The notes under the pieces were generated by a model that made no database searches, was not told the origin of the DNA, and saw only the letters and a program-made list of their open reading frames with translations. A stretch of 64,000 nt of DNA from Scylla paramamosain (taxonomy: Eukaryota; Arthropoda; Malacostraca; Decapoda; Portunidae). The DNA is taken from NCBI RefSeq assembly GCF_035594125.1, contig NW_026973714.1, positions 1 through 64,000 of the forward strand, read 5' to 3'. Below, in pieces: positions 24,963-57,114 of this stretch (its first letter is position 1; every line of letters starts with the position of its first letter). The translations under genes were made by a program, and so were the position numbers.

Positions 24963-25881
24963 TAGGCTAAAAAAGTTCAAGTCACCAGGACCTGATGAAA
25001 TATATCCCAGAGTACTTAAGGAATGTAAAGAGATTATTAGTGAGCCGTTAGTTTCTGTCTTTTAGGAAATCACTGGAGTCGGGTGAGGTACCAGTAATGT
25101 GGAGGCAGGCTAATGTAGTACCCATCTTTAAGAAAGGAGATAAAACTTTAGCGTCTAATTATAGACCTGTCAGCTTAACTTCAGTCGTAGGTAAAATGTT
25201 AGAGTCAATAATAGCGAGGAACATTAGGGAACATTTAGACAAACATAACTTGATAAATCAGTCACAGCATGGCTTCACGAAGGGGAAGTCTTGCCTGACA
25301 AACTTATTAAGTTTTTACAGTAAGGTGTACGAGGCAGTAGATAATGGTGATAGTTATGATATCTTATATCTGGACTTTAGTAAAGCATTTGACAAGGTAC
25401 CCCATCAAAGGCTCCTGAGAAAGGTTAGGGCACACGGGATAGATGGGAAGGTGTTAGGCTGGATAGGATCATGGCTTGGTAACAGGCGACAGAGAGTGGT
25501 AATAAATAGCTCGAAATCCGAGTGGGGTCATGTAATTAGTGGGGTACCACAGGGATCAGTATTAGGGCCATTGTTATTTCTAATGTATATCAATGACTTG
25601 GATAGTGGAATTAGTAGTGATGTTAGTAAATTTGCGGATGACACAAAGATAGGTAGATTAATTAGGTCAGAATCGGATGCCATCGCCTTGCAGGCAGACT
25701 TAGATAGAATGAATGAATGGACGGATAGATGGTAAATGCAATTTAATATCAATAAATGCAAAGTGCTTAGCGTAGGTAGAGGAAACCCACACAATAGGTA
25801 CACATTAGACAACCAAACTCTGGTAGGTAAAGGGTACGAGAAAGATTAGGAATTATAGTTAGCTCTGAACTCCGTCTAAGG
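24963..25881 (+). pseudogene. CR1/L2-group LINE reverse transcriptase fragment
   Basis: Starts inside the RT with FKSPGPDEIYPRVLK. After a one-base shift near 25.06 kb it runs open through [51 protein letters not shown] and KFADDTKI (25.63 kb), i.e. RT blocks through the catalytic Asp pair. TAA at 25733 then interrupts it before MQFNINKCKVL. The hAT end at 25882 cuts it off before the C-terminus. Most of the RT core (212 codons) is uninterrupted, so this copy is younger than its neighbours. Confidence 0.85.
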
Positions 25882-27795
25882 CAGTGGTTCCCAAACTATC
25901 TTACCTGACGCCCCCTTTTTGCTTCCAGTAGACCCGCACGCCCCCAGTGCCTCTTTTTTTTTTTTCATATGAAATGATTCTTACATTTATTTCTTAGCAT
26001 TGTTCAGGAAAACATATTTGTTTGTATTACATTTTAATAATGAAAGCCACTCAAACAAATAATAGTACATTCCAGTAACTAAAAAGGAAACATTTGGTTC
26101 AAAATGAGCGAAAAAAAAGGTTTGAACATTAGCAAATTGGCAAAATTGAGTTGCAATTTTAAGAAAAAAATAATTTGAAAACATGGCATATAATATTTGG
26201 AATGACTCATGAGACTAAGGCAAAATTTATGAACTAATTTAGTGAGATGGATGCTGCTGCTTCTTCCTCACAAGATCAGAAATTCTAGGATTGAAGGATG
26301 ACAGCGCACAACGCAAGTCATTTTCTACATCAAGTCGGTTGCGCTGTTTTGTTTTCAGAACAACAAGAGCTGAAAATCCTGCTTCACAAAGATAAGTAGA
26401 AGAAAAGGGAAGAATCACACGAAGTGCTTCTTCACCTATTTTTGGGTACATGGGGAGATATTTCACCCAAAACTCTTCTAACTTAATTGTTTCAAAGTCC
26501 CTTTTCGCGCTGGAGTCACATTTCAAATCGATGGCTTCCTCTTGCAGTGATTCCAGTAACAACTCCACATCAGTGTTAAATGGATTCTGCACCAATGTCC
26601 AAAGAGAATTCTCCATTGAGACATCTGGAAAATAGTGTATAAATTCCTCAGCAAGGGAATGCAGATGTGATAAAACCTCTTTTGTCACGTCATACTGCTC
26701 ATTGTTTCTCTTCTCAGATAAGAGCTCATTCAGATGTGAGAACGATGAAAAGTTCCCAACTTGTACTTTTCGTTTCCAAAGATGAATTTTTCGGTGAAAG
26801 CTCTGATCACATCAGTGTGCAATGATGTTTGTGTTTCTTCCTTGTAGCTTCAAATTGAGGTTGTTGATAGCCTCAAAAAAGTCCACAAGGTATGCTAGTG
26901 AGAGCTGAAAGTCTTCCTCTCTGAATGCTTCATACAGTTTGTCTTGTTTCTGCTTCTGCAAGAAAATTTTCACTTCATCTTTGAGCTCGTAAAGACGACT
27001 CAGCATGTTTCCCTTGGAAAGCCAGCGGACTTCGGTGTGAAACAGGAGAGTCTTGTAATCAGTGCCCAAATCTGAGCAAAGAGCTGCGAAAAGCCTAGAA
27101 TTCAAAGAGCTATTCTTTACAAAATTCACCACTTTTATTTCCAAATTCAGTGAACTGCGTAGATTACCAGGCAGAGTTTTGCTTGCTAATGATTGTCTGT
27201 GGATAACACAGTGAGTCCCAGTTACAGCAGGATTTTTTTTCTTTCACCAGCTTCACAAATCCAGAGCGAGATCCAATCATTGATGGGGCACCATCAGTAC
27301 AAACACCGACTAATTTTTCCCATGAAAGACCGTGCTCTTGGAAAAACTCATCAACCTTTGAAAAAACATTGATGGCCTTTGCTGTTGTCTCCAGTGCTGC
27401 TGAGAAAAGAATTTCTTCTTTCACAGTTCCTTCATCCACGAATCGAGAATAAACAAGCAGCTGGCAGAGGTGAGCAACATCAGTACTTTCATCGCACTGT
27501 ATTGCAAAGAAGCGAGATGCTTTTATTTTGTCCAAAACTTGTTCTTTTATGTCTTCTGAAAGTTCGTCAATGCGACGCTTCACTGTGTTATCTGATAAGG
27601 AAATCTTTGATAACTTTCTTTGGCTTTCTTCCCCAAGCACAGTATTTGCAGCACTCAAAATGCAGGGTTTTACAAGAGTCTCCCCCACAGAGTGAGGCTT
27701 CTTTGTTTTTGCAATAAGTAGTGACAGCTCGTAAGATGCTTCCACCAGTTTCCACGTTTCTTGAAAAACACTGCTTGAGTCCAGCTTCATACGAT
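25882..27795 (-). mobile_element. hAT DNA transposon fragment (Charlie/ZBED5-like)
   Basis: One terminus is visible: CAGTGGTTCCCAAACTAT at 25882, a typical hAT terminal inverted repeat. The flanking 8 bases are GTCTAAGG. The transposase reads from right to left on the minus strand. The other terminus and second target duplication are absent; near 27.80 kb the sequence passes into a Penelope-like fragment on the opposite strand. Confidence 0.75.
26239..27795 (-). pseudogene. hAT transposase, three frame pieces
   Basis: From the right: a piece with KLVEASYELSLLIAKTKKPHS, ETLVKPCIL, FFAIQCDESTDVAHLCQLL (catalytic-core Asp region) and VGVCTDGAPSMIG (second catalytic Asp region). A middle piece follows with LLFHTEVRWLSKGNMLSRLY. 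The C-terminal hATC dimerisation part is EEALRVILPFSSTYLCEAGFSALVVLK. These are diagnostic of the hAT family related to domesticated ZBED5-type genes. Frame breaks lie near 27.16 and 26.75 kb. The N-terminal BED finger is missing at the Penelope junction. Inactive relic. Confidence 0.85.
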
Positions 27796-28383
27796 TCAGC
27801 AAACAAAGAGAATAAAGATCCCTGTACAACCAGCGAAAGAGAGAGGTATATATGTGTACCAAATTCGGACAAGGCTTCCATAATCAATAAATATTTGTCT
27901 AAAACAGGATTAAAAATAGCAACATTAGCGGGAGAGAAAATTGGTGAGCTAACGAGGACTAAAGAGACCGGACTTGTTAATAATAACAGCGTAGTGTACA
28001 GCATACCATGCAAAGGTTGTACAAAGCAGTACATAGGAGAAACAGGCAGGGGACTTAAAACAAGAATAGCAGAGCATAGGAAAGATGTTTTAAAACACAA
28101 CACATCAAACTCCCTTGTATTGCACATAGAAAAATGTAAACACCTACCAAAATGGGAAGAGGCTAAAGAAATTAGAGTTGGATTGAAGAAAAGAATGAGA
28201 AAAGCTATAGAGGGAGCCCTCATAACAACTAGGGCGGGTAATTCTGCCAAATTGGCCCTCAGGTCAGGTACAAGGAAAATCCCCAGTAAAGGCTCATCAC
28301 GTAGGCGGATAATGCCATCTAGGAAAATAAAATTAGGTGAGCTACACGCCAGGATGGCAATACTCTGTACGAATGCCAAATGA
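27796..28383 (+). pseudogene. Penelope-like element C-terminus with GIY-YIG endonuclease
   Basis: Open to TGA at 28381-28383. The core SIPCKGCTKQYIGETGRGLK followed by RIAEHRKDV is the GIY-YIG endonuclease of Penelope-like elements, with the preceding CxxC and catalytic Tyr, Arg and His visible. The RT that normally precedes it is absent because the fragment joins antisense hAT sequence near 27.80 kb; the start codon of the open frame lies within hAT sequence. The last ~60 residues are Arg/Lys-rich. Confidence 0.85.
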
Positions 28384-28923: not shown

Positions 28924-30090
28924 TGTAGTGCTGGAAATTAATTATGTATATTTCTATTTCTTTTTTTTCTAGGCTAAGGCCCATGTAATGTGCGGGGATG
29001 ACCAGACAGTCTCAGTATCATGTGACTAACCCCCCCCTTCCCCTCCTCTCCTCAGTTTCCTTTTGTCCTTACTTTTTCTCCCTCTCAGCGTCACTGTGTT
29101 GACCACTTCTATGATAAATTTACCCCGTGAATAAACGTAATTTCTCCTGCTTGGCCAGGTTATAGAGGCGAATTTTTCACCTAATTCCAGAGAATGGGGA
29201 GCCCTTAATACGATAAAATTAATTCTATAATGGTAAGGTCTTAAGCCAGCTCAAACAAATCCCAGATAATTACGTCACGCCAATGAGGTTGACGAATCTG
29301 ATAAGTCTTCTTTGCTTCGCCGTCCTCTTACCCCTGTTGCTACGCAAGCCGGGAAGAGATACCAGACCTTGACTAATTCCCCAATTGATTTCAAAAGTCC
29401 ATTGAATTAAACTTCTTAAAGTAACAACTATAAAGTAAACAGTAACTTAATTATTCATATTTTTCATCCCTGAACTCACAACCTAGTCGCCCCCCCCACT
29501 AACACAAAATTATAACTCTTAATAAATTTCCCCACTGGAAACCTTTATCCTTAGTTTCCCGCCTATTTCCTCACAAGCAAAGCCAGTCTCTCTCGGATTC
29601 TCCTCAGTCTCTCTCGGATTCTCCTCAGATATTCCTGTTGATAAACTATTGTTCTGTGTGGATAGATATTCACATTTTTTCGTTCCTTTTGTTGATTCTC
29701 TCCACGTGACTAGTGCAACCACCTGGTTCGAGATCACCGTGTGAGACTGTCCTCAGGTCTATACATACCTTTTAGGTATATTTTTTATTTATTTATTTAT
29801 TCTCTGGTCTCCCTCGCAATTCAGTAGTCGCGAAGATATCTCCATCGCAGTTTTATGTAACTGAAGAGTACGCTACCATTCTTTTGTATTTCTGGATTCC
29901 TTTTTTTTATTATTATTATTCGGATTATTCCATTATCAATTAAAAATCTATAAAAGTGTCAATATTTGTATTTCTTTTAATCCAGTGATAGGATTTGTGA
30001 TTATCGTCTGCCACAAGGGAACATCACTCGTGGGCACTAACTGAAGGTGACTTTTATTTTATATATTTTTTTTTTTTCGTGGGCACTAAA
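28924..30090 (+). repeat. 5' LTR of element A (1167 bp)
   Basis: Starts TGTAGTGCTGG and ends GTGGGCACTAAA. Nearly identical to 55526-56697, with few substitutions and T-run length changes. The boundary with the internal region is set by the 3' copy and the CATA duplications, giving TG...AA rather than TG...CA ends. A second GTGGGCACTAACTG lies about 50 bp inside the end, like a copy of the LTR/primer-site junction. Confidence 0.85.
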
Positions 30091-30091
30091 C

Positions 30092-30157: not shown

Positions 30158-30682
30158 ATGTTGAAGGTGGCACTTGTAGGGCATAGCCAGATTCCCCGGC
30201 ATCTAAAGGTAACAAATGTGCAAATTAGGATATTCAGAGTCCCTGGAGCAAAGGCTAGAACTTTCTTTGAGGATGATCGGTTAAATCGAGTACTCGGGTG
30301 GGAACATGACTTGACCATCTTGTGGATAGGCAGCAATGACATAGAAACATCTACCAATCCCGCTAGGATTTTCTCCGATGTTAAGAACATCATCAAAGAA
30401 ATCACTGCCAAATGCCAATCACTAGTGCATGTCTGCCAAATTGAACCCAGGACCAACCCTAAGGGAACGTCAGTGGAGAAATATAAGAAATTCCAAGTAG
30501 GAATCAATAATAGAGTAAAGAGAGCCCTGAAGACCCCAAACATTCATTTTAATAATATTCAATTTGTACAAGAACTGAGCGAGGATGGTGTTCACTGGGA
30601 CGAGAGAGGCCAAGCTCAAGTAATCAGTAAGATCAAAAGAGTTATTGAAGGTCACAGTAGCGATAGAGAGGCAGTGGAGTAG
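30158..30682 (+). CDS. SGNH/GDSL-hydrolase-like ORF of element A
   Basis: 174 residues from ATG to TAG, first ORF after the primer site. Block I VGHSQIP (nucleophile Ser10), a Gly at residue 30, block III WIGSNDI (Gly58, Asn60) and block V DGVHW (Asp143, His146) give the full SGNH catalytic set. The fold family comprises esterases/lipases acting on acyl esters; the substrate here is unknown. No signal peptide or membrane segment is seen, so it would be cytosolic. Gag starts 118 bases downstream. Element B carries a homologue (~40% identical by eye) at the same place. Esterase domains are known in CR1-type LINE ORF1; I know of no Gypsy precedent. Confidence 0.8.
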   Translation: MLKVALVGHSQIPRHLKVTNVQIRIFRVPGAKARTFFEDDRLNRVLGWEHDLTILWIGSNDIETSTNPARIFSDVKNIIKEITAKCQSLVHVCQIEPRTNPKGTSVEKYKKFQVGINNRVKRALKTPNIHFNNIQFVQELSEDGVHWDERGQAQVISKIKRVIEGHSSDREAVE

Positions 30683-30800: not shown

Positions 30801-31621
30801 ATGACTGATAATGTTCGCCTCCCAAGGGGTGGATTAGACCCGTGGCAGGACTTAATGGATCATAACACCAGAGAGAGCCTGGGAGCAGTTAAACATGAAA
30901 GTAAAGGGAAAGACTTGAACACTTTAGAACAGGAAGTAGAGGAACTAAAGCAAATCTTAAATCAACAAAATCAGGTAATTGGGCGCTTGGCTAACATCCC
31001 TAATTTACACAGAGCACCTAGCACTCCCACCAAACCCCGAGATATCCCAATTCTTGAACTCCACCACCTACAAGGTCTTGACTCAACTACCCAACTGCAA
31101 ATTTTCATTGAACTGGTGGAGCAAAGTAGCAATGAGGACACCTGCAAAGTGCAAATTGCAAAGAGTAGGGTCAGCAGCGAGCTCGCGGCTCTCATACATA
31201 ACCATCAAACCTTACATCATTGTCACACCTGGAATAGTATTAAACAATTGCTTCTATCACAATTCTCCCAAGAGGTTAACTTTGACAGGGCGTGGAGAGA
31301 CATAGACGCACAGACATATGACTGGGTAGAATCTCCCCAAGCATTTGCCAACAAATTCACTTGCAAATATGCCACCCTAGAGACGAGCTTTCCAGGAGAG
31401 AAACTCCCTAAATGTGAGAAAATTATCAAAAGAAAGTTGTGGCAGGGCTTAACCCAAGAAGCAAAGGCTAGACTAGAAGGTTTCCTGGATGAGGATTATC
31501 CTCTTGATAAATTTATTGACAGGGTAGAACATGAGCGCCAACTGCTCGAGGCTGCCCATACTTCCCCCATTGCTAGAATTAAACCTGAACTGGGAAAATC
31601 TAGATCAAAACCCACTGGTAG
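30801..31621 (+). CDS. Element A gag, N-terminal part (interrupted by B)
   Basis: From ATG at 30801: an acidic N-terminus, a coiled-coil-like stretch (LEQEVEELKQILNQQNQVI, residues ~35-53), then a capsid-like domain (AKSRVSSELAALI, NFDRAWRDID, DWVESPQAFANKF, KRKLWQGLTQEAK) with close counterparts in B. It is cut at 31621 by the LTR of B, whose GTAG duplication ends the coding part. Reading continues in frame at 40569 if B and one duplication are disregarded. Gag would form the particle shell packaging element RNA. Confidence 0.85.
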
Positions 31622-32982
31622 TGTAACGCTCCTTTTTATTATTTCTGTGTTTCTTTGAGTCTCCCCAATAATTGTTTTCTTTTGTAGCTTGCGGTGAAGA
31701 GGAGGATAATAGCGGTAATTAAAGGTTTAGTAATTATATGAAAAAGTATATTTATAAGGCGTGTATTCGTGGGAGTGATTTAAAAGTCTTGAAACATTTG
31801 TTATAAATAGTCTTTACTTATTTCAACTGTGGTTTTCTCTAATCAGTGGTAATACGAATAATAGGATTACATCATGTTGCGTCAGCCTACCAGTAACTCA
31901 TAAGGTGTCATTTCCTAGCTTATAAAATATGTTAGTAATTTAGAATTCAATTATTAACTTCAACTAATGTCCAGCCTATATGCTCACCTTGCTAGCCAAT
32001 TATTCCTGCATTTTTATTTAAACTCACGGTTCAGTAAAATTATTTGTGAAAGAAGAGAGAGAGAGAACTAGTTAAGGTTCCAATAACTTCAGAGGCCTGG
32101 GGGTGTTGAGGGAGAGAGCACAGAATGGCGTCTCCCTTCCCTCTGGCAACAGGTGGGTCTCGTAGCTCTGAAATATTTGATTTTTCTTTTATTTAGAAGT
32201 GAATATTACTGTGTTCATGTTTATTATTCATGTCTCTAGTGAAGATATAGTGACTGTACGTGTTGACAGAATGGCGTCTCCCTTCCCTCTGGCAACAGAA
32301 TGGCGTCTCCCTTCCCTCTGGCAACAGATAAAATAGCCGGTGTTGGTCCCACGTGGAGACAGGCCACAGAGTCTTGGGAAAGTGTTAGCCATGTAATGTT
32401 TCTTTAGTCAAGTATAATCTACTGTGAATGTGTTGTGAGCAATATTATTGCCGTAGAGAAGTGATGGATGAAGGCTGTGACGCTATTTAGGGATATAACG
32501 GTGCCCAGAATCAATGGTACTCTTGAGGAGTTATAAAAGTAATTATTTTCTTGTGTATTCGTAGTGTTAAGTAACGGAGTATAAGTGTATATGCCATACC
32601 AGAATTTCAAGTGCCTTATTTTTTTTTTTTTCTAGATTAACCACTCGATAGTGTCATAGTGGGTCAGTCAACCCAAAGAATCCCATCAGTATTATTCATT
32701 TAATTATTTTTTTGCTATTTTTATATTTTTCGTTCCTCCTAATAAAGCCACACTGTAGGTACTGTGTGATAATTAACCTCTCCCTACCCTCTGGCCATGA
32801 CGATGAAAGCGAGAACCATTACCAATCAAAAATGTTTTCTTTTTTTCTATTGTGTGTGCGTGCTTCACTTCTTCTCTCTTCCTCTTCTTTTTTCTTCTTT
32901 ACCGTGAAGATCTTTGCCTCGTCTCATTAGAGCTCTGATCGGACCGGTGAGGAGAAGGGAGGAGGGGGGGGGTGGCGTTACA
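31622..32982 (+). repeat. 5' LTR of element B (1361 bp)
   Basis: Begins TGTAACGCTCC and ends GGCGTTACA (canonical TG...CA), nearly identical to 39206-40564. It contains a ~30-bp motif, ATGGCGTCTCCCTTCCCTCT followed by GGCAACAG, three times (about 32122-32152, 32268-32297 and 32298-32327, the last two in tandem). The first copy runs into GTGGGT, a possible splice donor. Short open frames inside the LTR are not supported as genes. Confidence 0.9.
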
Positions 32983-32983
32983 C

Positions 32984-33004
32984 TGGTGGCAGCGGTGGGA
33001 TTCG
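32984..33004 (+). other. Primer-binding site of element B (tRNA-Leu)
   Basis: TGGTGGCAGCGGTGGGATTC starts one base after the LTR and matches the complement of a metazoan tRNA-Leu 3' end including CCA, from memory of that tRNA. It primes minus-strand DNA synthesis. Confidence 0.8.
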
Positions 33005-33071: not shown

Positions 33072-33608
33072 ATGTTCAAAGTGGCTGTTGTAGGTCATAG
33101 CCAGGTACCACGTAGGTTTGATGTGGAAGTGGAGAATTCAGAAGTAAGGATATATCGTGCAGGAGGAGCAAGAGCTAGGAATTTCTTTAATGATGAGAGA
33201 TTGAATCACGTCTTGGCATGGAGACATGACCTCACTTTCCTCTGGTTAGGAAGCAATGACATCAATCCTAATACACAGCCTTGTGAATTAACAGATACAA
33301 TTCTGAACATTGGCAAAGAAATTGAACGAAATTGCGGTTCGAAGGTTATTTTGGTAGAAATAGAAAATAGACAGTATCCATCTAGCAGACCAGTAATTCC
33401 GAATGAACGCTATAAAAAGATAAAACGTGCAGTGAATGCCGCTTTGCTTAAAAGTAAACAGTTCTTGTGTATCAATTTTAACAGTTTTGTGTTTACCCTT
33501 GGAAGAGATGGAGTACATTTCGAAACCAGTGCCAAGGCTCAAATTCAACAAAAGTTGGCTATGAATATTAGCAAAGCCAAAGCTTGTCTATTTGGCCCTG
33601 TACACTAA
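33072..33608 (+). CDS. SGNH/GDSL-hydrolase-like ORF of element B
   Basis: 178 residues from ATG at 33072 (no in-frame ATG upstream after the primer site) to TAA. Catalytic blocks: VGHSQVPR (Ser10), AGGARARNF (Gly), FLWLGSNDI (Gly60, Asn62) and GRDGVHFE (Asp146, His149). Gag starts only 8 bases after the stop, so gag may be translated by reinitiation or from another mRNA. The element is intact and young and the same catalytic residues survive in the diverged relative A, which argues for selection. Possible roles (membrane or lipid interaction, RNP function as suggested for LINE ORF1 esterases) are inference. Confidence 0.85.
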   Translation: MFKVAVVGHSQVPRRFDVEVENSEVRIYRAGGARARNFFNDERLNHVLAWRHDLTFLWLGSNDINPNTQPCELTDTILNIGKEIERNCGSKVILVEIENRQYPSSRPVIPNERYKKIKRAVNAALLKSKQFLCINFNSFVFTLGRDGVHFETSAKAQIQQKLAMNISKAKACLFGPVH

Positions 33609-33616
33609 AGTTCAAC

Positions 33617-34837
33617 ATGGATCGCATAGAGTCACTAATAGATATGGAGGAGAATGAAGAATACGGTGGAGTTAGATGGGAAAATCCAGAGCAGGGAGAA
33701 TCAGAGGTCAATGCCAATCAGGTAATGATAGATACAATGAAGTTTATGGTGGCTAAACTTGAAAATATGTCAATGAGAATTGATGGATTGGAGGACTCGC
33801 TGAGTAGGGCAGTTCCCCCAGAGGGAGGAGGTACTCCAGCCGTTCTTTCAAACAGTCAGTTGCAAGTTCAAACCTCACTCCCTAGTCATTCCATGCCATT
33901 AGCCCCAGTCATGACAAGTACCCCTGCGAAGTCAACCTCAGAGGTTAGAGTCAAGCCGGAAGTGGCTAAGTCGCGAGTTGATGGGGACTTGGCGGTTATG
34001 ATTCACACAGCGCAAAGACAAGGAGAAGTAAAGGTATGGGAGGACTGTAAGACATACCTAACCAAAGAGTTTGGCGTGGACCTGAATTTTGATCAAGCTT
34101 GGAGACAGAGTGACTCTTTTCACTATGATTGGCTAGAAAACCCTCAATCCTTTGTTCACAAGTTCAAATGTCACTATGCAGCTATCCGAGGGACATTTCA
34201 TGGTGAAATTCTACCTGATCGAGACAAGCTTCTCAAACGTAAGTTATTGCAGGGATTCCCCAAGAGCAGTAAAGATCTTCTTGAGACGTTCATGGATGAC
34301 AATATTCCCTTGAACAAATTCCTTGGACATGTAGAAAATGAACGGATCTTGCTAATGCAAAAACATGCGTCAGTCAATTCAGTTCCTAATCATCCTGGGG
34401 AGGATACCTCTCGTTCTTGCTCTCGCAGTAACTCGCAGAGTTTAGCCAGCATCCAATCAGATATTTCCTCTCCCCAGTCTGAAAATAATTTGTCAAAAAT
34501 TGCTGCTAAACTAGATCAGTTGCAACAACAAATAAGTAGGTCATGTGTCTCCAAAGCACCTTCATCACCTCGCAAATTCTGTGCATTTTGCCAAACTGAA
34601 ACTCATTCCCTGAGAGATTGTTGGAGGAAACCAGAAAGGGGACACTGTTTCGATTGTAGGAGGTACGGCTGCCGTCGGGGTAATCCCACATGCCCGGGAA
34701 AAACCCCACGGACACCTTCAGTTCCCCAGAAAAATGATGGGAGAACAAGTGCCCTTCCCAAGAAATCCCAGTCAGTCCGTAACACACAATTGACAGAAGG
34801 AACACCCAACGTATCAGTCGGTGATTCTACTCAATGA
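33617..34837 (+). CDS. Element B gag
   Basis: 406 residues from ATG at 33617 to TGA at 34835-34837. The N-terminus is acidic with a short predicted coiled coil (MKFMVAKLENMSMRIDGLED). The capsid-like part (residues ~130-260) has NFDQAWRQSDSFHYDWLENP and RKLLQGFPKSSKDL, then a Ser-rich linker. Near residues 320-355 is one CCHC knuckle, C-x2-C-x4-H-x4-C, followed by a second finger with Cys in place of His (C-x2-C-x4-C-x6-C). The region after the fingers is basic. The TGA is followed by CTAG and pol continues in the same frame, so a fraction of ribosomes may read through. Confidence 0.9.
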   Translation: MDRIESLIDMEENEEYGGVRWENPEQGESEVNANQVMIDTMKFMVAKLENMSMRIDGLEDSLSRAVPPEGGGTPAVLSNSQLQVQTSLPSHSMPLAPVMTSTPAKSTSEVRVKPEVAKSRVDGDLAVMIHTAQRQGEVKVWEDCKTYLTKEFGVDLNFDQAWRQSDSFHYDWLENPQSFVHKFKCHYAAIRGTFHGEILPDRDKLLKRKLLQGFPKSSKDLLETFMDDNIPLNKFLGHVENERILLMQKHASVNSVPNHPGEDTSRSCSRSNSQSLASIQSDISSPQSENNLSKIAAKLDQLQQQISRSCVSKAPSSPRKFCAFCQTETHSLRDCWRKPERGHCFDCRRYGCRRGNPTCPGKTPRTPSVPQKNDGRTSALPKKSQSVRNTQLTEGTPNVSVGDSTQ

Positions 34838-34842
34838 CTAGG
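34835..34842 (+). promoter_or_regulatory. Putative gag-pol readthrough stop (UGA CUA G)
   Basis: The only stop between gag and pol. UGA followed by CUAG is the best-known context favouring readthrough in animal mRNAs. The homologous position in element A (40861) also has an in-frame UGA followed by CUC. Confidence 0.7.
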
Positions 34843-37800
34843 CCGAGAAGATCTATCACCTGTAGTCAACCTCATAGTTAGTGGTAAACTATGTTCTGCG
34901 TTACTCGACACAGGTAGTTGTGTAACCCTAATCCGGCGAAGTACGGTACGTAGGCTGAGTCTTGAAATAGATAAATCCAGGTGTTTGCCATCATTAACAG
35001 CGGTAAATGGAGATCCGTTAAGAGTTCTTGGGATGGTAAAAGTTGAAATTCATGTGGGAGATCAAGAAGTGTGCAAACAGTGGATTTCAGTAGTGCCAGA
35101 TTCATACCTCCAAAGAGATTTGTTGCTAGGTTGTGATGTTATTCAGCGGTCAAGATTAACTTGGAATCCGCGGGAGAAGATGATGCTTTGGGGAGGAACC
35201 TCATATTCTGTTTCTCATGTCCGTAAGACTCAAGTTTGTGTAGGAAGGGTTTGCCAATCTCTTCCCATGAGCGTTCAATGTGAAGAGAAGAGCCGAGTTC
35301 AGCTCAAAGATATGGTTCATCTGAAGCCCCACCAGGGTAAAGTAATTCAAGTTGAGGTTGATGAACACTCGGGATCGAGTCTGTTGGTATATCCTCAATC
35401 TCGACATTCTTCTCAAACCTGCCCGTTGTTAGTAGAAGTCAGTGAAACCCAAACCATTCCTGTACTTGTAGACAATTTGTCCAAGGTACATAAGTTCCTA
35501 AAGACAGGTACAGTATTGGCCTATTATGAGAAATATTCTGGTCCAGTCGAGGATACATCCTCACAAGTGTGCCACACCCGTATTGAGAATGAGTTGGAAC
35601 CTCAGAATGATGTGGTAGAAGGAAATGGTACCCGAGCAGAACGTTTGCAGAGTCTCATTAATCAACAGAATTGGGCTCACCTCGCGAATGATCAACAAAA
35701 ACAATTGTCCAATGTAGTGTTATCACATGAGAAGCTGTTCATGTTAGAAAAGAAGGACATAGGCACCATCTCGGGTGAACCTGCCCACATTGCCGTGTCC
35801 GACCCAAACCCTTGCCAATCTCCTATGTACTGTTATCCTGAACATGCTAAGATGTTAGTATCTCAAATGCTAGTGGAGATGGAGGAGAGAGGTGTGATTG
35901 AGCCTTCGAGTGCAGCATGGCTGTCTCCAATTGTCCTCGTGAACAAACCTGATGGGAGTAAGAGAATGTGTTTGGATTTTAGACAGGTGAACGAACAGCT
36001 AGCTGCGGATCTTTACCCATTACCTCGGCTTGAGGATTTGGTCAATGTCGCGGCAGGTCACCAGTACTATGCCACACTAGATTTAAAGGATGCATACTTC
36101 CAGGTAGTCTTGGATGAGGAAAGCCGAGATCTAACAACTTTCTCTGATGGAATATCACTGTATCGTTTCCGTCGGTTACCGTTCGGACTGAGTTGCGCAC
36201 CCACAATCTTTTCTCGCAAGATGGCCGAAATCTTGACGCCTTTGTTGCGTGAGGGATGGGTCAAAAACTATCTAGACGATATCATTCTATGGGCCGAGTA
36301 CTTCGACCAGCTAATGGAAAGATTGGGTAGACTGTTCGCCTTGTTAGAGGAGAAAGGTATCAAGCTGAATCTGACTAAGTGCGACTTGGTGAAGCAGGAG
36401 GTGAAATTTCTAGGTCACCTAGTTTCTAAGGATGGAAGTACTCCTGATCAGAAAAATCTAGAAGCAATTAGAGAACAAGCTCCACCTAAAAATGTCAAGC
36501 AAGTTAGGAGATTTATTGGCATGTGTGGGTTTTATCGGAAATTTGTACCCAATTTTTCAAAGATAGCCATGCCTCTCACAAATCTCATGAAAGGGGATGT
36601 AAAGTTCAGTTGGACGGATGAACGTCAGGTTGCATTCGAGGCTCTCAAAACAAAACTTATGTCAACACCCATTTTGGCTAGTTATCAACCTGAAATTCCT
36701 CTGGTGTTAGTCACAGATGCTAGCGATGAGTGCGTAGGATCGGTACTGCACCAAGTTCAACCTGATAAAAGTGTCCAACCTCTAGGTTACTATTCTAAGA
36801 AGATCAGTAAGTGCAAGCAGAAGTATTCAGTCACCGACAAAGAAGCGTTAGCTGTCGTGTTAGCTTGCCGTCATTTCCACCATTACCTTTGGGGAACCAA
36901 CTTTGAGATTCAAACCGACCACCAACCGCTCACTACTATCTTCCGTAGGCGGACTAAGTCGCCCAGAGTAACTAGGTGGATGCTGGAAATGCGCGAGTAT
37001 CACTTTCGCGTAAAGTATGTAAAGGGAAAAGATAATGTAGTGGCTGATCAGTTGTCGCGTCCTGTTAGGCTTATTACACATCAACCCAACGTTACCTGGT
37101 TAGGCCTAACCCGAGAGGAATTCATTAAAGGGCAGCGCGAAGATCCAACTTGGAATGAACTCTTAGACTACTTGAAGGGTGGGGTGTTGCCAGGGCGAAA
37201 GATTGCTAAGGCAACCCTTGATCAGTTTGAAGTTCTGGATGGTGTGTTGCACTATGTTAGAGAGACCAAAGATGGCAGTCTAAATTACACTGTAGTAGTA
37301 CCCCGACACCTAGTCAGAAAGGCACTAGAAGTTGCTCATGATCAATCAGGACATTTTGGGCAGTTCAAATCCATCAAGCAGGCAGAAGGGTTGTTTTATT
37401 GGCCTACTATTAAGTCGGATGTAATACAGTATCTTAAAGAGTGTCTAAACTGCCAAAAATTCAAACACAACCGAGGAATGTCACAGCCATACCGAGAGTT
37501 ACCTATAGTGTCACAGCCATTGGAGAGGATTGCCATTGATCTCACTGACATGACCAATGGACAGGAGGGTCAAAGGTATATCCTCACCATCATAGACCAC
37601 TTCTCTAGGTATGTAAAATTTTATCCTCTAAAAACAAAACATGCTCAGGGTATAGTAGCTAAGCTTTCCCAATACATCTCTGACTTTGGCCGGCCACTCT
37701 CCATCCTGTGTGACAATGCCTTGGAGTTCACGGGACGAGAACTAAGAACCTGGGCTGGTCTTCATGGGATAGAACTGCTCTACACCACTCCCTATCACCC

Positions 37801-38449
37801 CCAGTCAAACGGACTCATCGAGAGAATGCACCGGACCCTGAAGACCGTGCTGTCCCAAATGTGCAAGGGTTACCCTTTAAGGTGGCCCGCCCTTCTCAGT
37901 GAATGTCAGTCACACATGAATCTGGCAGTACATAGCAGCACGGGGGTCTCTCCATATGTAGCATTCTTCGCAAGACAGCCACCTCGTTTCGTCACGGCGC
38001 CTCTCCTGACGGTGCAGTCTGAAGATAGTGACGTTCAGCAACTTAAGCGCATGATTAAAGACGCTAGTGTGACGTCACAGAGGAGGTACCGTGCAGTGGC
38101 GAACAGAAAACGACGTGATGAAAAGGTCTCAGTTGGGTCCTTGGTGTGGGTGAAATCAGAAACTCCGTTGCCTGGTACCTCTACCAAATTGAACGCTAAG
38201 TGGAAAGGACCATATCGAGTGAGTGAGGTAATCAGGGACGGTCAACTGTATGTAGTGGAGGACCCCTATTCTGGGAAGTTAGTACAAAGAGCAGCAGAAA
38301 AGGTGAAACCGTATGTGAGCCGGAGTGAAATTATTCCGGAGTTGGAGGAGAACTATTCAGACGGATGTGTTGAGGAGGAGGAGGAGGAGGATCAAGACCT
38401 CCCTCCCCACCGCCGTCGACCTCCCAGACGTCTTATTGAGGAGTGCTAA
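34838..38449 (+). CDS. Element B pol: protease, RT, RNase H, integrase
   Basis: About 1203 codons in the same frame as gag, directly after its UGA; no ATG until 34985, which lies past the protease active site, so readthrough rather than separate initiation fits. Protease: LLDTGSCVTLI (Asp codon 34907). RT: WLSPIVLVNKPDGSKRMCLD, FGLSCAPTIF, NYLDDIILW (YLDD 36269-36280), FLGHLVS. RNase H: LVTDASDECVGSV and QTDHQPLTTIF. Integrase: HHCC finger (HDQSGHFG...CLNCQKFK), core Asp/Asp/Glu in IAIDLTDM, LCDNALEF and LIERMHRTLK, and a WKGPYRV GPY-type C-terminus. It ends with an acidic then Arg-rich tail. Everything needed for cDNA synthesis and insertion is open. Confidence 0.93.
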   Translation, partial: LGREDLSPVVNLIVSGKLCSALLDTGSCVTLIRRSTVRRLSLEIDKSRCLPSLTAVNGDPLRVLGMVKVEIHVGDQEVCKQWISVVPDSYLQRDLLLGCDVIQRSRLTWNPREKMMLWGGTSYSVSHVRKTQVCVGRVCQSLPMSVQCEEKSRVQLKDMVHLKPHQGKVIQVEVDEHSGSSLLVYPQSRHSSQTCPLLVEVSETQTIPVLVDNLSKVHKFLKTGTVLAYYEKYSGPVEDTSSQVCHTRIENELEPQNDVVEGNGTRAERLQSLINQQNWAHLANDQQKQLSNVVLSHEKLFMLEKKDIGTISGEPAHIAVSDPNPCQSPMYCYPEHAKMLVSQMLVEMEERGVIEPSSAAWLSPIVLVNKPDGSKRMCLDFRQVNEQLAADLYPLPRLEDLVNVAAGHQYYATLDLKDAYFQVVLDEESRDLTTFSDGISLYRFRRLPFGLSCAPTIFSRKMAEILTPLLREGWVKNYLDDIILWAEYFDQLMERLGRLFALLEEKGIKLNLTKCDLVKQEVKFLGHLVSKDGSTPDQKNLEAIREQAPPKNVKQVRRFIGMCGFYRKFVPNFSKIAMPLTNLMKGDVKFSWTDERQVAFEALKTKLMSTPILASYQPEIPLVLVTDASDECVGSVLHQVQPDKSVQPLGYYSKKISKCKQKYSVTDKEALAVVLACRHFHHYLWGTNFEIQTDHQPLTTIFRRRTKSPRVTRWMLEMREYHFRVKYVKGKDNVVADQLSRPVRLITHQPNVTWLGLTREEFIKGQREDPTWNELLDYLKGGVLPGRKIAKATLDQFEVLDGVLHYVRETKDGSLNYTVVVPRHLVRKALEVAHDQSGHFGQFKSIKQAEGLFYWPTIKSDVIQYLKECLNCQKFKHNRGMSQPYRELPIVSQPLERIAIDLTDMTNGQEGQRYILTIIDHFSRYVKFYPLKTKHAQGIVAKLSQYISDFGRPLSILCDNALEFTGRELRTWAGLHGIELLYTTPYHPQSNGLIERMHRTLKTVLSQMCKGYPLRWPALLSECQSHMNLAVHSSTGVSPYVAFFARQPPRFVTAPLLTVQSEDSDVQQLKRMIKDASVTSQRRYRAVANRKRRDEKVSVGSLVWVKSETPLPGTSTKLNAKWKGPYRVSEVIRDGQLYVVEDPYSGKLVQRAAEKVKPYVSRSEIIPELEENYSDGCVEEEEEEDQDLPPHRRRPPRRLIEEC

Positions 38450-39205: not shown

Positions 39206-40564
39206 TGTAACGCTCCTTTTTATTATTTCTGTGTTTCTTTGAGTCTCCCCAATAATTGTTTTCTTTTGTAGCTTGCGGTGAAGAGGAGGATAATAGCGGT
39301 AATTAAAGGTTTAGTAATTATATGAAAAAGTATATTTATAAGGCGTGTATTCGTGGGAGTGATTTAAAAGTCTTGAAACATTTGTTATAAATAGTCTTTA
39401 CTTATTTCAACTGTGGTTTTCTCTAATCAGTGGTAATACGAATAATAGGATTACATCATGTTGCGTCAGCCTACCAGTAACTCATAAGGTGTCATTCCCT
39501 AGCTTATAAAATATGTTAGTAATTTAGAATTCAATTATTAACTTCAACTAATGTCCAGCTTATATGCTCACCTTGCTAGCCAATTATTCCTGCATTTTTA
39601 TTTAAACTCACGGTTCAGTAAAATTATTTGTGAAAGAAGAGAGAGAGAGAACTAGTTAAGGTTCCAATAACTTCAGAGGCCTGGGGGTGTTGAGGGAGAG
39701 AGCACAGAATGGCGTCTCCCTTCCCTCTGGCAACAGGTGGGTCTCGTAGCTCTGAAATATTTTATTTTTCTTTTATTTAGAAGTGAATATTACTGTGTTC
39801 ATGTTTATTATTCATGTCTCTAGTGAAGATATAGTGACTGTACGTGTTGACAGAATGGCGTTTCCCTTCCCTCTGGCAACAGAATGGCGTCTCCCTTCCC
39901 TCTGGCAACAGATAAAATAGCCGGTGTTGGTCCCACGTGGAGACAGGCCACAGAGTCTTGGGAAAGTGTTAGCCATGTAATGTTTCTTTAGTCAAGTATA
40001 ATCTACTGTGAATGTGTTGTGAGCAATATTATTGCCGTAGAGAAGTGATGGATGAAGGCTGTGACGCTATTTAGGGATATAACGGTGCCCAGAATCAATG
40101 GTACTCTTGAGGAGTTATAAAAGTAATTATTTTCTTGTGTATTCGTAGTGTTAAGTAACGGAGTATAAGTGTATATGCCATACCAGAATTTCAAGTGCCT
40201 TATTTTTTTTTTTTCTAGATTAACCACTCGATAGTGTCATAGTGGGTCAGTCAACCCAAAGAATCCCATCAGTATTATTCATTTAATTATTTTTTTGCTA
40301 TTTTTATATTTTTCGTTCCTCCTAATAAAGCCACACTGTAGGTACTGTGTGATAATTAACCTCTCCCTACCCTCTGGCCATGACGATGAAGGCGAGAACC
40401 ATTACCAATCAAAAATGTTTTCTTTTTTTCTATTGTGTGTGCGTGCTTCACCTCTTCTCTCTTCCTCTTCTTTTTTCTTCTTCACCGTGAAGATCTTTGC
40501 CTCGTCTCATTAGAGCTCTGATCGGACCGGTGAGGAGAAGGGAGGAGGGGGGGTTGGCGTTACA
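39206..40564 (+). repeat. 3' LTR of element B (1359 bp)
   Basis: Near-identical copy of 31622-32982; includes the three ATGGCGT(C/T)TCCCTTCC motifs, one with a C-to-T change. Followed by the GTAG duplication and then gag of element A. Confidence 0.92.
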
Positions 40565-40568
40565 GTAG

Positions 40569-40863
40569 CCCTGACCCAATAACTCAAAATCCCCCAGACC
40601 TAACAAATGCAACATCCAAGGAATCAAAGGAAATTTGGGAACTTAAGCAGCAGATTAAAAGTCTCACTGATCAAGTAGGAAGGTTGAGAACCTCCCCCTC
40701 TCCAACACAACCCGCTAAATATTGCTCACACTGTCAAACCCATAGTCACACGCTGAGGGAGTGCTGGAGAAAACCTGCCCGTGGATCATGCTTTGCCTGT
40801 AGACAGCATGGGTGCTGGAGAGGAAATAAAGACTGCCCCGGAAAACCAAATCAGAATATATGA
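40569..40863 (+). CDS. Element A gag, C-terminal part with zinc fingers
   Basis: Continues A gag after B. A helical stretch (EIWELKQQIKSLTDQVGRLR) is followed by CSHCQTHSHTLREC (C-x2-C-x4-H-x4-C) and a second finger CFACRQHGCWRGNKDC with Cys replacing His, the same pair as in B. It ends at TGA 40861-40863. Protease follows in the same frame, so the gag-pol stop is conserved between the two elements. Confidence 0.88.
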
Positions 40864-42389
40864 CTCACCCAGGGACTCACATCCCCCGCTATCAATCTCA
40901 TAGTTAACAAGAAAATTCTTAAAGCTGTCATTGACACTGGTAGCGGCTATACTTTAATCACAAAGGCTGCGGTAGAGAAATTAGAAGGAGCTATATCACA
41001 AAGGCGAGCAGTACCTATACTACAAGGGGTAACTGGTTCACCCTTACGAATCTTGGGGATGACCTTACTAGAGATAGGAGTAGGTGAAGAGACTATACAC
41101 AAACAATGGTGCCCTGTAGTCCCGAATAGCTACCTTGATGCTGACGTCTTACTCGGGACAGACATACTTTCACAAGCTCCTTTTCAATGGAATGGTAAGA
41201 CAAATACAGTAAAGTGGGGTAAAACCACATACCTTGTTAATCATATCAAAAGGCAGAAAGGCAAGGTGGAATGAGTTCACGAGGTACCTATTCTTCCTAC
41301 CACTCCAAGTCAAACAGATCACATCCGTCTAACTCATACCATCAAACTTGATCCCTACCGAGCTCAGTTTCTTCCTATCTCGGTGAAAGAAGACCCAGGA
41401 GAAACTTTGTTAGTCCAGCCTCAGCCATGTTTAACGCCTAATCATCACCCCTTGATTGTAACAGTAGATGAGAATAAAAAGGTCCCCCTCCCATTTATTA
41501 ATGATACTAAGGGCCAGAAAACAGTCAAACCAGGAACCCTATTAGGCACTTTTGAAAACATCTCCTCCCCGACGGTCAAAGTCATCCACCAAAAGCAAGC
41601 CACTCCTTCCCTAGAAATCCACAATGATCTGTTGCCACACAACGACCAAACAAGGTGTCAAGAGTCAAAGAGTAGGCCACAAAGACTCGAGGAGTTGATA
41701 AGACAACAGAAATGGAATAACCTTACTAGAGAGCAGAAAACAATCTTAAAAAATATCATTCTCAATCACCATGATTTATTCATAGTAGACAAAAACGAAC
41801 TTGGATTAATGAAAGGGCCTCCTGCTAAAATTAATATCTCTAATCCAGAGCCTAGTCGTGGTCCTAGGTACCGATACCCCGAGGAAGCTAAAACCCTGAT
41901 ATCAGACATGTTAACAGATATGGAGAACAGAGATATCATTGAAAAATCTACATCTGCATGGCTCTCTCCTATAGTATTAGTCAATAAACCGGATGGAAGT
42001 AAAAGAATGTGCCTTGACTACCGACATGTCAACAAACACTTAACTACTGACATTTACCCGCTTCCCCGCCTAGAAGAATTAGTTGAACAAGCAGCTGGCC
42101 ATCAGTTCTATGCCACGCTAGATATGAGGGAGGCTTATTTTCAAATTCTATTGGAGGAAGGTAGCAGAGACCTCACAGCCTTCAGTGATGGGGTGACTCT
42201 CTATAGGTTTAAAAGGCTACCTTTTGGATTAAGCTGTTCTCCAGCTATCTTTACTAGACATATGGCCTCATTGTTAGCTCCTCTCGTGAAGAAGGGTTGG
42301 ATGAAAAATTACTTAGACGACCTAATCATTTGGGCTTCAGACTTCACCACACTCAGCGAAAGACTCAGTGAAACTTTCGCTTTACTTAA
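40864..42389 (+). pseudogene. Element A pol, part 1: protease and RT N-terminal half
   Basis: In frame with gag after the UGA. Protease motif AVIDTGSGYTLI (~40.93 kb) and LLGTDILSQAPFQW. A nonsense TGA at 41272-41274 breaks it where B has sense codons; the frame then reopens. RT blocks: WLSPIVLVNKPDGSKRMCLD, FYATLDMREAYFQ, FGLSCSPAIF and NYLDDLIIWA (YLDD 42310-42321). Coding is cut at the TTAA 42386-42389 by the piggyBac element. Apart from the nonsense codon this part looks intact. Confidence 0.88.
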
Positions 42390-42884: not shown

Positions 42885-43243
42885 ATGCCGCGGGGCTTGA
42901 CATCGGCGCAAATAGAGAATATTCTCTATGACGATAATGTCACAGAGTTGGGGGACAGTGATCTCTCTGAGGAGGACGATGAAGATGACTCTGATTACAT
43001 ACAATCAGACAGGGGGAGTGGTGATGAAAATGAAAGTGAATCTGCTCCTGCTCATTCCAGCAAGAAGCGGAAAAGGGATGGTGGGGAGTCCGGGCTTGTA
43101 GTAGGTGCTTCCTCACTATCAGCTTCTCAGCCACTGCATGACCTCGCTAGTCAAGCGCACACACCATCTACATCCCAAGCTCAACACCAAACAATAAATG
43201 CTGATGCTGATGTACAATGGGAATGGAGAGATGGGCATGACTT
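42885..43243 (+). pseudogene. piggyBac transposase N-terminal part (before frameshift)
   Basis: ATG at 42885 in a good context (CACCATGCCG) starts a 120-codon acidic region: LTSAQIENILYDDN, then a Glu/Asp-rich stretch (LSEEDDEDDSDYIQSD), a basic KKRKRDG patch that could be a nuclear localisation signal, and WEWRDGHDF. Acidic N-termini are usual in piggyBac transposases. A one-base shift near 43235-43250, next to a TTTT run, separates it from the catalytic part. Confidence 0.75.
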
Positions 43244-44737
43244 TTGCCCACTGATTTTCAGTTTGATCTTCATGGTCGTGGTATACCACATGGACTCGTT
43301 CATGATGGCAGCACAGAGAGTGAATATTTTAGGTTGTTTTTCACGGAAGACATAATGGCTCATATAGTCAAAGAAAGCAACAAGTTTCATGGCTTTATGA
43401 TAGCAGGTAAAATACTCCATCCACACTCTCGTTTCTTGCAATGGCAGGACACAGATGTAAAAGAAATGTACTCATTTTTGGCTTTAGTTATGCTGATGGG
43501 GCTCACTCCAAGGGAAAATTATAAGGAATACTGGTCGACAGATCCACTTCTTCGCCAGCCTATTTTCAGTAAAATCATGTCAGTAAACAGGTTCATTGCT
43601 TTGCTACAGGCCTTACACTTCCAAGATAACACTCAGCCAACTGATGATGACAAAATGAGAAAAATAAGGCCCATCTTTAACTACATTTGCCATAGTTTCA
43701 AGTCATCATTCAAACCATTTCAAAATTTAGTTATTGATGAAAGTTTGGTTCTGTGGCGTGGTAATATACACTTTCGCCAGTACATCCCATCCAAGCGCCA
43801 CCGATTTGGCCTAAAACTATTTGTTCTTTGTGACTGTGAAACTGGCTTCATTTTGGACATGATTTTGTACACTGGGGCAAGAACAAACATCAAAGAGAAT
43901 AAGAAGTTGGGCATATCAGGAAGCGTTGTCAGTACCATGCTTGAGTCTTACCTTGGTCAAGGACATATACTTTTTGTTGACAACTGGTACACCAGTCCTA
44001 CACTGCTCCACTATCTGCATGAGAGAATGACTGGGGCCTGTGGTACGGTAAAGCCAAATCGCAAGTTTATGGCCAAATTCCCCATCGGACTGCAGAAAGG
44101 CGATGTTGTTCACAAGCAGGCAAACAACATTCTTGCAGTGAAATGGAAGGACAAGAGAGACGTTCATCTCCTCACCAGTGTCCATGAACCAAAGTTGCAA
44201 ACGAGTGAGAACATTGACCATTCCACAAAAACCTTCATCGACAAACCTGAATGTGTTATTGTCTACAACCAAAACATGCGCCTTGTAGATAAAAGTGACA
44301 GCATGATGTCATCTGTGGAATGTTCAAGGAAAACAATGAAATGGTACAAAAAGATGTTTTTTCATCTGATTGACTGTGCTGTCCTCAACGCCCATATTCT
44401 ATACCAGGTCAAAACTGGCGAGAAGCCGACACTCCATGACTTCACAAGGGAGGTAATAAGACAGCTTCTTGAGCAGTATTCGGAGCCTCTTCCTACAGCA
44501 GGACGACGACGAGCATCTCATGGTGACGATCCTACACGTCTCACAGGTCGTCATTTTCCCAAGTATATCCGACCTACAGCTGCCAAGAAAAACGCCCAAA
44601 AGCCTTGCCACGTCTGCCGCACCACCACACTCCGGCCAAAGCAACGCAAAGATACGAGGTTCATGTGTGTGCCCTGCGACACGGCTCTTTGTCTGGACCC
44701 GTGTTTTGAGGTATATCACACTCTCAAGATATACTAG
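43244..44737 (+). CDS. piggyBac (PGBD-type) transposase, catalytic part
   Basis: 497 residues, open. The DDE_Tnp_1_7 domain begins with FRLFFTEDIM and continues YSFLALVMLMGL. The three catalytic aspartates are recognisable: VIDESLVLW (Asp165), FVDNWYTSP (Asp246) and LVDKSDSMM (Asp349, with Asp352). The C-terminal Cys-rich domain (residues ~455-495, CHVCRTTT...CVPCDTALC) binds terminal repeats in characterised piggyBac transposases. The protein cuts and pastes the element at TTAA. The first in-frame ATG of this frame is an interior position; the natural start is at 42885 in another frame, hence the one visible lesion. Confidence 0.88.
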   Translation: MPTDFQFDLHGRGIPHGLVHDGSTESEYFRLFFTEDIMAHIVKESNKFHGFMIAGKILHPHSRFLQWQDTDVKEMYSFLALVMLMGLTPRENYKEYWSTDPLLRQPIFSKIMSVNRFIALLQALHFQDNTQPTDDDKMRKIRPIFNYICHSFKSSFKPFQNLVIDESLVLWRGNIHFRQYIPSKRHRFGLKLFVLCDCETGFILDMILYTGARTNIKENKKLGISGSVVSTMLESYLGQGHILFVDNWYTSPTLLHYLHERMTGACGTVKPNRKFMAKFPIGLQKGDVVHKQANNILAVKWKDKRDVHLLTSVHEPKLQTSENIDHSTKTFIDKPECVIVYNQNMRLVDKSDSMMSSVECSRKTMKWYKKMFFHLIDCAVLNAHILYQVKTGEKPTLHDFTREVIRQLLEQYSEPLPTAGRRRASHGDDPTRLTGRHFPKYIRPTAAKKNAQKPCHVCRTTTLRPKQRKDTRFMCVPCDTALCLDPCFEVYHTLKIY

Positions 44738-48371: not shown

Positions 48372-48373
48372 AT

Positions 48374-48391
48374 TGGGGGCCTGTCCGGGAT
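48374..48391 (+). other. Primer-binding site (tRNA-Pro-like)
   Basis: TGGGGGCCTGTCCGGGAT, two bases after the LTR; complementary to a tRNA-Pro 3' end except for about two bases. Confidence 0.75.
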
Positions 48392-55525: not shown

Positions 55526-56697
55526 TGTAGTGCTGGAAATTAATTATGTATATTTCTATTTTTTTTTTTTTCTAGGCTAAGGCCCATGTAATGTGCGGGG
55601 ATGACCAGACAGTCTCAGTATCATGTGACTAACCCCCCCCCTTCCCCTCCTCTCCTCAGTTTCCTTTTGTCCTTACTTTTTCTCCCTCTCAGCGTCACTG
55701 TGTTGACCACTTCTATGATAAATTTACCCCGTGAATAAACGTAATTTCTCCTGCTTGGCCAGGTTATAGAGGCGAATTTTTCACCTAATTCCAGAGAATG
55801 GGGAGCCCTTAATACGATAAAATTCATTCTATAATGGTAAGGTCTTAAGCCAGCTCAAACAAATTCCAGATAATTACGCCGCGCCAATGAGGTTGACGAA
55901 TCTGATAAGTCTTCTTTGCTTCGCCGTCCTCTTACCCCTGTTGCTACGCAAGCCGGGAAGAGATACCAGACCTTGACTAATTCCCCAATTGATTTCAAAA
56001 GTCCATTGAATTAAACTTCTTAAAGTAACAACTATAAAGTAAACAGTAACTTAATTATTTATATTTTCCATCCCTGAACTCACAACCTAGTCGCCCCCCC
56101 CACTAACACAAAATTATAACTCTTAATAAATTTCCCCACTGGAAACCTTTATCCTTAGTTTCCCGCCTATTTCCTCACAAGCAAAGCCAGTCTCTCTCGG
56201 ATTCTCCTCAGTCTCTCTCGGATTCTCCTCAGATATTCCTGTTGATAAACTATTGTTCTGAGTGGATAGATATTCACATTTTTTTGTTCCTTTTGTTGGT
56301 TCTCTCCACGTGACTAGTGCAACCACCTGGTTCGAGATCACTGTGTGAGACTGTCCTCAGGTCTATACATACCTTTTAGGTATATTTTTTATTTATTTAT
56401 TTATTCTCTGGTCTCCCCCGCAATTCAGTAGTCGCGAAGATATCTCCATCGCAGTTTTATGTAACTGAAGAGTACGCTACCATTCTTTTGTATTTCTGGA
56501 TTCCTTTTTTTTTTTATTATTATTTGGATTATTCCATTATCAATTAAAAATCTATAAAAGTGTCAATATTTGTATTTCTTTTAATCCAGTGATAGGATTT
56601 GTGATTATCGTCTGCCACAAGGGAACATCACTCGTGGGCACTAACTGAAGGTGACTTTTATTTTATATATTTTTTTTTTTTTTTCGTGGGCACTAAA
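55526..56697 (+). repeat. 3' LTR of element A (1172 bp)
   Basis: Near-identical to 28924-30090; followed by CATA and the right part of the hAT-type element. Confidence 0.9.
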
Positions 56698-57114
56698 CAT
56701 ACCCCCAATGGATTGTCGAATATGGTCCCATACCCCCTTCACTTGACTGTTCAAATAATTATCACCAATCCTATTATTTGCCAGTATGTCTTCCAGATAT
56801 GAGTATTTCAATCGCTTGAATTTACTGTACTTTGGATACGGATTACTAGGAAAAAAACATAACCATTGATAATTTGATTATTTTTTTACTGAAAGCAAAA
56901 TTAATAAAGTTATAGTTCCGTTTTATTATTTAAACTTTATTTAAATTTAAAACACTGGAAAGAGTCAACCGCCGTCATGTAGGGTAGCGCGCGCATCGCA
57001 CTGGCAGAGGGGGAAACTACCAGTACCCAGAAATCGAGTCCCAGACCCCCGGCCTTTGGTTCCCATACCCCCAAGGGGTTTCGATACCCCCGGTTAAGAA
57101 CCCCTGGTATAGAT

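Follow-up and report, generated by a model that had tools for sequence, protein, structure and literature searches.

In the Vesta retrotransposons of bdelloid rotifers, which carry long terminal repeats (LTRs), a GDSL esterase/lipase is encoded as the third open reading frame (ORF3) and has been proposed to have a membrane role (Rodriguez et al. 2017, PMC5408684). Likewise, the esterase of the ORF1 protein (ORF1p) of ZfL2-1, a long interspersed nuclear element (LINE), is active on pNP acetate as a hydrolase and has affinity for negatively charged lipids (Schneider et al. 2013, PMC3905857), and the tyrosine recombinase (YR) retrotransposons Ngaro of Xenopus encode an SGNH protein in an ORF of its own, located after the recombinase, whose function is unproven (PMC9210276). 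Troyka elements have 5'-CG..CG-3' termini and a 3-bp target site duplication (TSD; PMC12440569). Here we describe an LTR retrotransposon of the Ty3/Gypsy group, element B, whose first gene is an SGNH-hydrolase ORF lying between the primer-binding site (PBS) and gag. It was found in a stretch of 64,000 nucleotides from Scylla paramamosain (assembly GCF_035594125.1, contig NW_026973714.1, positions 1 to 64,000; hereafter the window), where it has inserted into the gag of element A, an older member of the Gypsy group.

Computation supports the SGNH gene itself, the fold predicted for its product, the conservation of the catalytic residues and, in several lineages of elements, the position between PBS and gag, and we are almost certain that it is a real and conserved accessory gene. 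Our preferred reading, to which we give a probability of about 0.6, is that a Ty3/Gypsy group, probably of decapods, has long kept an SGNH hydrolase as its first cistron, and that this enzyme aids Gag particles by acting on lipids or acyl groups. The hydrolase would be translated from the first AUG past the PBS, gag would then be reached by reinitiation or from a separate mRNA, and the enzyme would bind or cleave lipids or acyl groups, allowing Gag particles to assemble on, leave or cross membranes; this membrane route is modelled on the proposal for the ZfL2-1 ORF1p esterase. We would put the membrane or particle role of the protein, taken separately, at even odds.

The host of this gene had been taken in the preliminary description for an intact Gypsy element, and it is indeed intact in outline. 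Element B is 8,943 bp long, with LTRs of 1.36 kb that are 99.27% identical (8 mismatches, 2 gaps), TG..CA termini and GTAG on both flanks (a 4-bp TSD). A PBS-like sequence, TGGTGGCAGCGGTGGGATTCG, begins at 32984 and is presumably complementary to tRNA-Leu. Scanning the window and 20 loci for a matching tRNA-Leu gave no tRNA genes. Pfam matches in pol cover the reverse transcriptase (RT), RNase H (RH) and the integrase (IN; rve), with a GPY motif at pol residue 1124, and the protease (PR) was recognized from an LLDTGS motif and from its similarity to the protease of element A, which itself has a Pfam match. The Pfam scan gave no gag match for element B, and this ORF is called gag because of where it lies, because it has a CX2CX4HX4C knuckle and because it resembles the gag of element A; nor did the scan reveal a dUTPase in pol. 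The 756 nt from pol to the 3' LTR contain no ORF of 90 codons, and thus no env was seen. In all, LTRs, PBS, TSD size, gag and the pol order PR-RT-RH-IN agree with Ty3/Gypsy.

The SGNH gene starts at the ATG at 33072 and ends in a TAA at 33606-33608 (178 codons), and its location between PBS and gag and the motifs GHS (residues 8-10), GSND (60-63) and DGVH (146-149) are as originally reported. Its five alternative frames contain 4 to 20 stops each, and 178 open codons have a chance probability of about 1.6e-6 at this base composition. By itself, the protein matches Pfam Lipase_GDSL_2 with an E of 7e-5 and 23.8 bits, under the curated cut-off of 32.9, and the single sequence reached a best E of only 0.029 in a phmmer search of the Protein Data Bank (PDB); among 61 members of the SGNH family, 53 match Lipase_GDSL_2 at E <= 0.001. 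As had been anticipated, the AlphaFold model, compared with solved structures, shows the SGNH fold (flavodoxin-like alpha/beta/alpha). Ser10 (block I), Asn62 (block III) and the Asp-x-x-His of block V (Asp146 and His149) are all present and conserved. We take the Gly of the preliminary description to be Gly60, which lies next to Asn62 in block III. SGNH enzymes carry a separate block II Gly, for which G32, invariant across 61 alignment rows, is a candidate. The protein, which is stand-alone and apparently cytosolic, is likely to be an active enzyme. In a BFVD fold search, the named entries among the 50 matches listed were phage, giant-virus or unclassified-virus proteins, and a viral contig scan yielded none that was confirmed.

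The nearest folds in the structure search include the acyl-CoA thioesterase TesA, carbohydrate acetylesterases and PAF-AH. These neighbours, and the small size and apparently cytosolic nature of the protein, would suit an acyl-protein or small-molecule esterase that deacylates or deacetylates a host trafficking or defence factor, or Gag, instead of acting on membranes, and depalmitoylation figures among the options of the ZfL2-1 authors (PMC3905857). However, fold similarity names no substrate and nothing here indicates one, and we regard such an activity as unlikely.

Three protein searches returned 11, 140 and 143 hits (120 listed in each of the last two; the second scored the best 8000 candidates), and the matches listed contain at least 157 distinct family proteins, of which two have names and come from crabs: P0074 belongs to Chionoecetes opilio and P0142 to Portunus trituberculatus. 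Residues were counted over 120 listed proteins plus the SGNH proteins of A and B (122 sequences), dropping gapped rows: Ser10 is found in 107/109, Gly60 and Asn62 in 121/121 each, and Asp146 and His149 in 108/109 each. The catalytic residues also fall within the 13 invariant columns of the 61-member alignment. One family protein, P0006, is extended by approximately 80 residues at its N terminus and has Cys where the nucleophile Ser would be. A tree was built from 139 rows, made up of the SGNH proteins of A and B and of family proteins 160-300 aa long. It places A, B and P0074 in separate supported clades, with weak deepest forks.

This near invariance over the 122 sequences argues against a structural or RNA- or Gag-binding role on an SGNH scaffold with incidental catalysis. 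Non-catalytic SGNH proteins are known, for instance the SGNH domain of Oskar, and natural SGNH-Gag fusions would suit a scaffold: in the B copy L020 the SGNH stop is lost and the frame reads into gag, and in Chionoecetes P0074 the SGNH reads into an A-like gag, possibly as an effect of the gene model. We find a purely structural role rather improbable.

The preferred reading, a long-standing first-cistron hydrolase, draws further on the copies of the gene in the genome. In the 1.21 Gb assembly, 150 of 271 candidates were scored, so that copy counts are lower bounds: at least 35 full-length B-type rows, 31 without stops, and at least 67 rows of 46-48% identity, taken as A-type, 63 without stops. 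LTR, leader, SGNH and gag follow in this order in all 30 B-type loci analysed, with a gag match 95 nt long in five; their leaders align throughout (93-100%), and the exact 21-mer of the PBS is found in 8/30. A CATAG form of the PBS occurs in 21 of these loci (17 identical). Leader, SGNH and gag were likewise present in 10/10 A-type loci, picked from plus-strand rows, and the first 19 PBS bases in four of them. A 1841-aa open frame at one A-type hit was discarded as a fusion, because it runs into unread letters. Four B-type loci (L001-L004) have a common A-type hit approximately 2.9 kb upstream, and might therefore have arisen by duplication of a single nested insertion, in which case at least 27 of the B-type places are separate. 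A B-type hit approximately 2.9 kb after an A-type hit is found on four contigs, C47, C52, C135 and that of the window (C98), and the B-type SGNH of C47 is identical to that of the window; the pattern may reflect haplotigs or a segmental duplication of one nested insertion. For L005-L030, nt 342 of the window gag is where the best gag match begins, or nt 95 is where it stops; the copy in the window is thus one of a minority subgroup that has a different gag segment.

A further sample comprised 20 loci, chosen mostly because their hits were odd or divergent; L033 and L020 turned out to be one place, which left 19. Gag lies downstream of the SGNH in 11 of these, in L049 only after approximately 2.9 kb. 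Seven of the loci (L038, L041, L043, L045, L046, L048 and L049) define a third, A-like lineage, whose SGNH is 45-58% identical to that of A and which keeps the gene order. The copies examined thus sit mostly within LTR elements, at one position, instead of lying mostly outside them, and the suggestion that an LTR retrotransposon lineage had acquired the enzyme gains support. It extends to no fewer than three lineages of this genome, although most copies of the third are broken.

Several observations weigh against a long-kept and functional hydrolase. The nucleophile Ser is replaced in 2/109 family rows (by Cys and Ile), and the conservation is partly built in, because family members were found by their likeness to the query. 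Locus L044 has a gag piece upstream only, and L031 runs into unread letters. Six loci (L032, L034, L036, L040, L042 and L047) gave no gag, pol or LTR match in 7-9 kb, where a very different gag could be missed; they match the SGNH at 35-43% identity, with loss of one or more catalytic residues in L032, L034 and L042, stops in L040 and L047, and a partial match without stops in L036. In the third lineage, the SGNH match contains stops in 5/7 loci. The lack of an SGNH match in element C, the third LTR element of the window and also of Gypsy type, shows that the gene is dispensable for Gypsy mobility in general. Lastly, the ratio of nonsynonymous to synonymous differences (pN/pS; tree-free Nei-Gojobori counts, pooled over sequence pairs) is 0.77 among the B copies of the SGNH (26 distinct sequences), which is near neutral.

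Between the two B subgroups (2 and 24 sequences) pN/pS is 0.58, and B copies with a comparable gag give 0.58 for both SGNH (16 sequences) and gag (18). The A copies reach 0.18 (nine distinct sequences) and, over the same 12 loci, 0.20 for SGNH (8 distinct) vs 0.52 for gag (10 distinct). Between A and B, the SGNH proteins are 46.5% identical (73/157), with a saturated pS of 0.77 and a pN of 0.386, and identities elsewhere are 35% and 52% (two gag pieces), 44% (PR), 50% and 58% (RT pieces), 56% (RH+IN) and 47% (last IN piece); the SGNH therefore appears to have aged alongside the whole element. Its constraint is comparable to that of gag and protease; to judge from the copies, it would be at least like that of gag, and young B copies by themselves are no proof of recent selection. 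That the gene is a passenger, captured from the host and of no benefit to the element, is very improbable, since the near-neutral B copies, as expected for young copies of any element, are countered by the low pN between A and B at saturated pS, the 0.20 of the A copies, the single position in several lineages and the lack of stops in most A- and B-type frames. A recent capture of a host gene was also rejected: the two SGNH proteins differ at approximately 53% of residues, their synonymous sites are saturated and they fall in separate supported clades. One open frame of 1029 aa (683-3772 of L032) ends in an SGNH domain in which GHE and YGKH stand where Ser and Asp would be expected; a host gene may here have taken up a dead SGNH copy.

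The distance from the SGNH stop to the start of gag is 8 nt in B and 118 nt in A. The SGNH ATG of B is the first after the PBS and that of gag (33617) the twelfth; plain leaky scanning is unlikely, because ten AUGs separate both start codons in A and in B. Gag might be reached by reinitiation, by splicing or through an internal entry site. Gag and pol share a frame, parted by TGA CTA in B (34835-34840) and TGA CTC in A (40861-40866). In both contexts the TGA looks like a programmed stop that would be read through. Such read-through between gag and pol is unusual for Gypsy elements.

The features of both elements are collected in Table 1. In the window, tblastn with 121 queries (120 family proteins plus B; E <= 0.001) found SGNH only in A and B, and none in element C; SGNH as a general Gypsy gene was discarded on this result. 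Element C (47767-54408) is nested in the pol of A, its integrase precedes the RT, and its gag part has a SCAN match. The pol of A also contains a piggyBac-like transposase at 43241-44737 (DDE_Tnp_1_7, E 3e-89). Remnants of another Gypsy element (integrase by Pfam), as well as a reverse transcriptase of LINE type and an ORF resembling GIY-YIG, these two recognized by eye, lie at 20004-22478 (minus strand), 25052-25735 and 27718-28383.

Table 1. Coordinates of elements A and B in the window.
Feature	Positions	Strand	Remarks
Element A 5' LTR	28924..30091	+	98.4% identical to 55526-56698
SGNH-hydrolase ORF, element A	30158..30682	+	First ATG past element A PBS; 174 aa; precedes gag
Element A gag, N-terminal piece	30801..31621	+	Broken by element B
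Element B 5' LTR	31622..32982	+	TG..CA; 99.27% identical to 39206-40564
PBS of element B, tRNA-Leu-like	32984..33004	+	From sequence; putative tRNA assignment
SGNH-hydrolase ORF, element B	33072..33608	+	First ATG past PBS; 178 aa; motifs, predicted fold
Element B gag	33617..34837	+	CX2CX4HX4C knuckle; 8 nt past SGNH stop; TGA then CTA
Element B pol	34838..38449	+	PR, RT, RNase H, IN, GPY motif; gag frame continued past TGA
Element B 3' LTR	39206..40564	+	TSD GTAG at 31618-31621 and 40565-40568
Element A gag, C-terminal piece	40565..40863	+	Zinc knuckle; TGA then CTC; first four bases are the TSD
Element A 3' LTR	55526..56698	+	LTR pair 98.4% identical

A wider version of the preferred reading would see an old and widespread crustacean Gypsy clade in which an SGNH membrane module, made before Gag, edits lipids or acyl groups for the transit of env-less particles. 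We consider this quite unlikely; if true, the module would let the elements pass from cell to cell, and perhaps from one species to another, without an envelope. Env-free spread of Drosophila LTR elements from cell to cell has reportedly been described in a 2025 preprint (PMC11952523).

Among known systems, cellular SGNH hydrolases (TesA/TAP, PAF-AH alpha, aryl esterase) have the fold and the catalytic residues of the B protein, at approximately 13-20% identity in structural alignments. No report of an SGNH/GDSL gene ahead of gag in a Gypsy element was found in the open-licence literature searched; a prior description elsewhere is possible. The preliminary description knew of no standard Gypsy/Ty3 element encoding such an enzyme; for LTR elements at large this gives way to the GDSL esterase published in Vesta, whereas the position, the host group and the conservation look new. 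Vesta is likewise an LTR retrotransposon with a separate SGNH/GDSL enzyme beside gag and pol but, as described there, this is ORF3 (taken as after pol), obtained as 1.3 kb clones, and PR is separated from RT by a dUTPase (PMC5408684). Element B has instead a 0.54-kb first ORF and no dUTPase in the Pfam scan, and its place ahead of gag excludes a Vesta-type element. Ngaro elements also have a separate SGNH ORF; they differ by the tyrosine recombinase, an ORF placed after it and split direct repeats in place of LTRs (PMC9210276), and the rve integrase in the pol of B excludes membership. Troyka was excluded by the TG..CA termini and the 4-bp GTAG.

The ORF1p esterases of CR1, L2 and RTEX LINEs resemble the B protein as retroelement SGNH esterases in a gag-like first position (PDB 4c1b); unlike it, that of ZfL2-1 belongs to a non-LTR element and is joined to a coiled coil (PMC3905857). 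With the family profile, 4c1b is matched almost from end to end (E 3.7e-5), below a designed GDSL scaffold (1.5e-5) and approximately threefold above the bacterial 2hsj (1.2e-4), and 4c1b ranks 29th by Foldseek (TM 0.40) and is absent from the 50 VIA rows listed; the match is therefore no demonstration of common descent with the LINE esterases. The transposon-specific H191 and S228 of ZfL2-1 (PMC3905857) align, by our reading, with W58 and E96 of B. The H191 position holds W or F in 121/121 ungapped family rows and the S228 position holds E96 in B, and membership of the CR1/L2/RTEX group was rejected, since neither residue is kept. We nevertheless think, by analogy, that the SGNH proteins of A and B may work like the LINE esterases. 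Being small enzymes that stand alone, and having many copies free of stops, they offer a convenient system for asking what retroelement esterases do. Esterases are known from LINEs, Ngaro, Penelope-like and rotifer LTR elements; to these are now added Gypsy elements that have one as their first gene, in lineages differing at approximately half of their residues. From this repeated recruitment with kept catalytic residues, we argue that lipid or acyl chemistry may be a general and so far unexplained need of retroelements.
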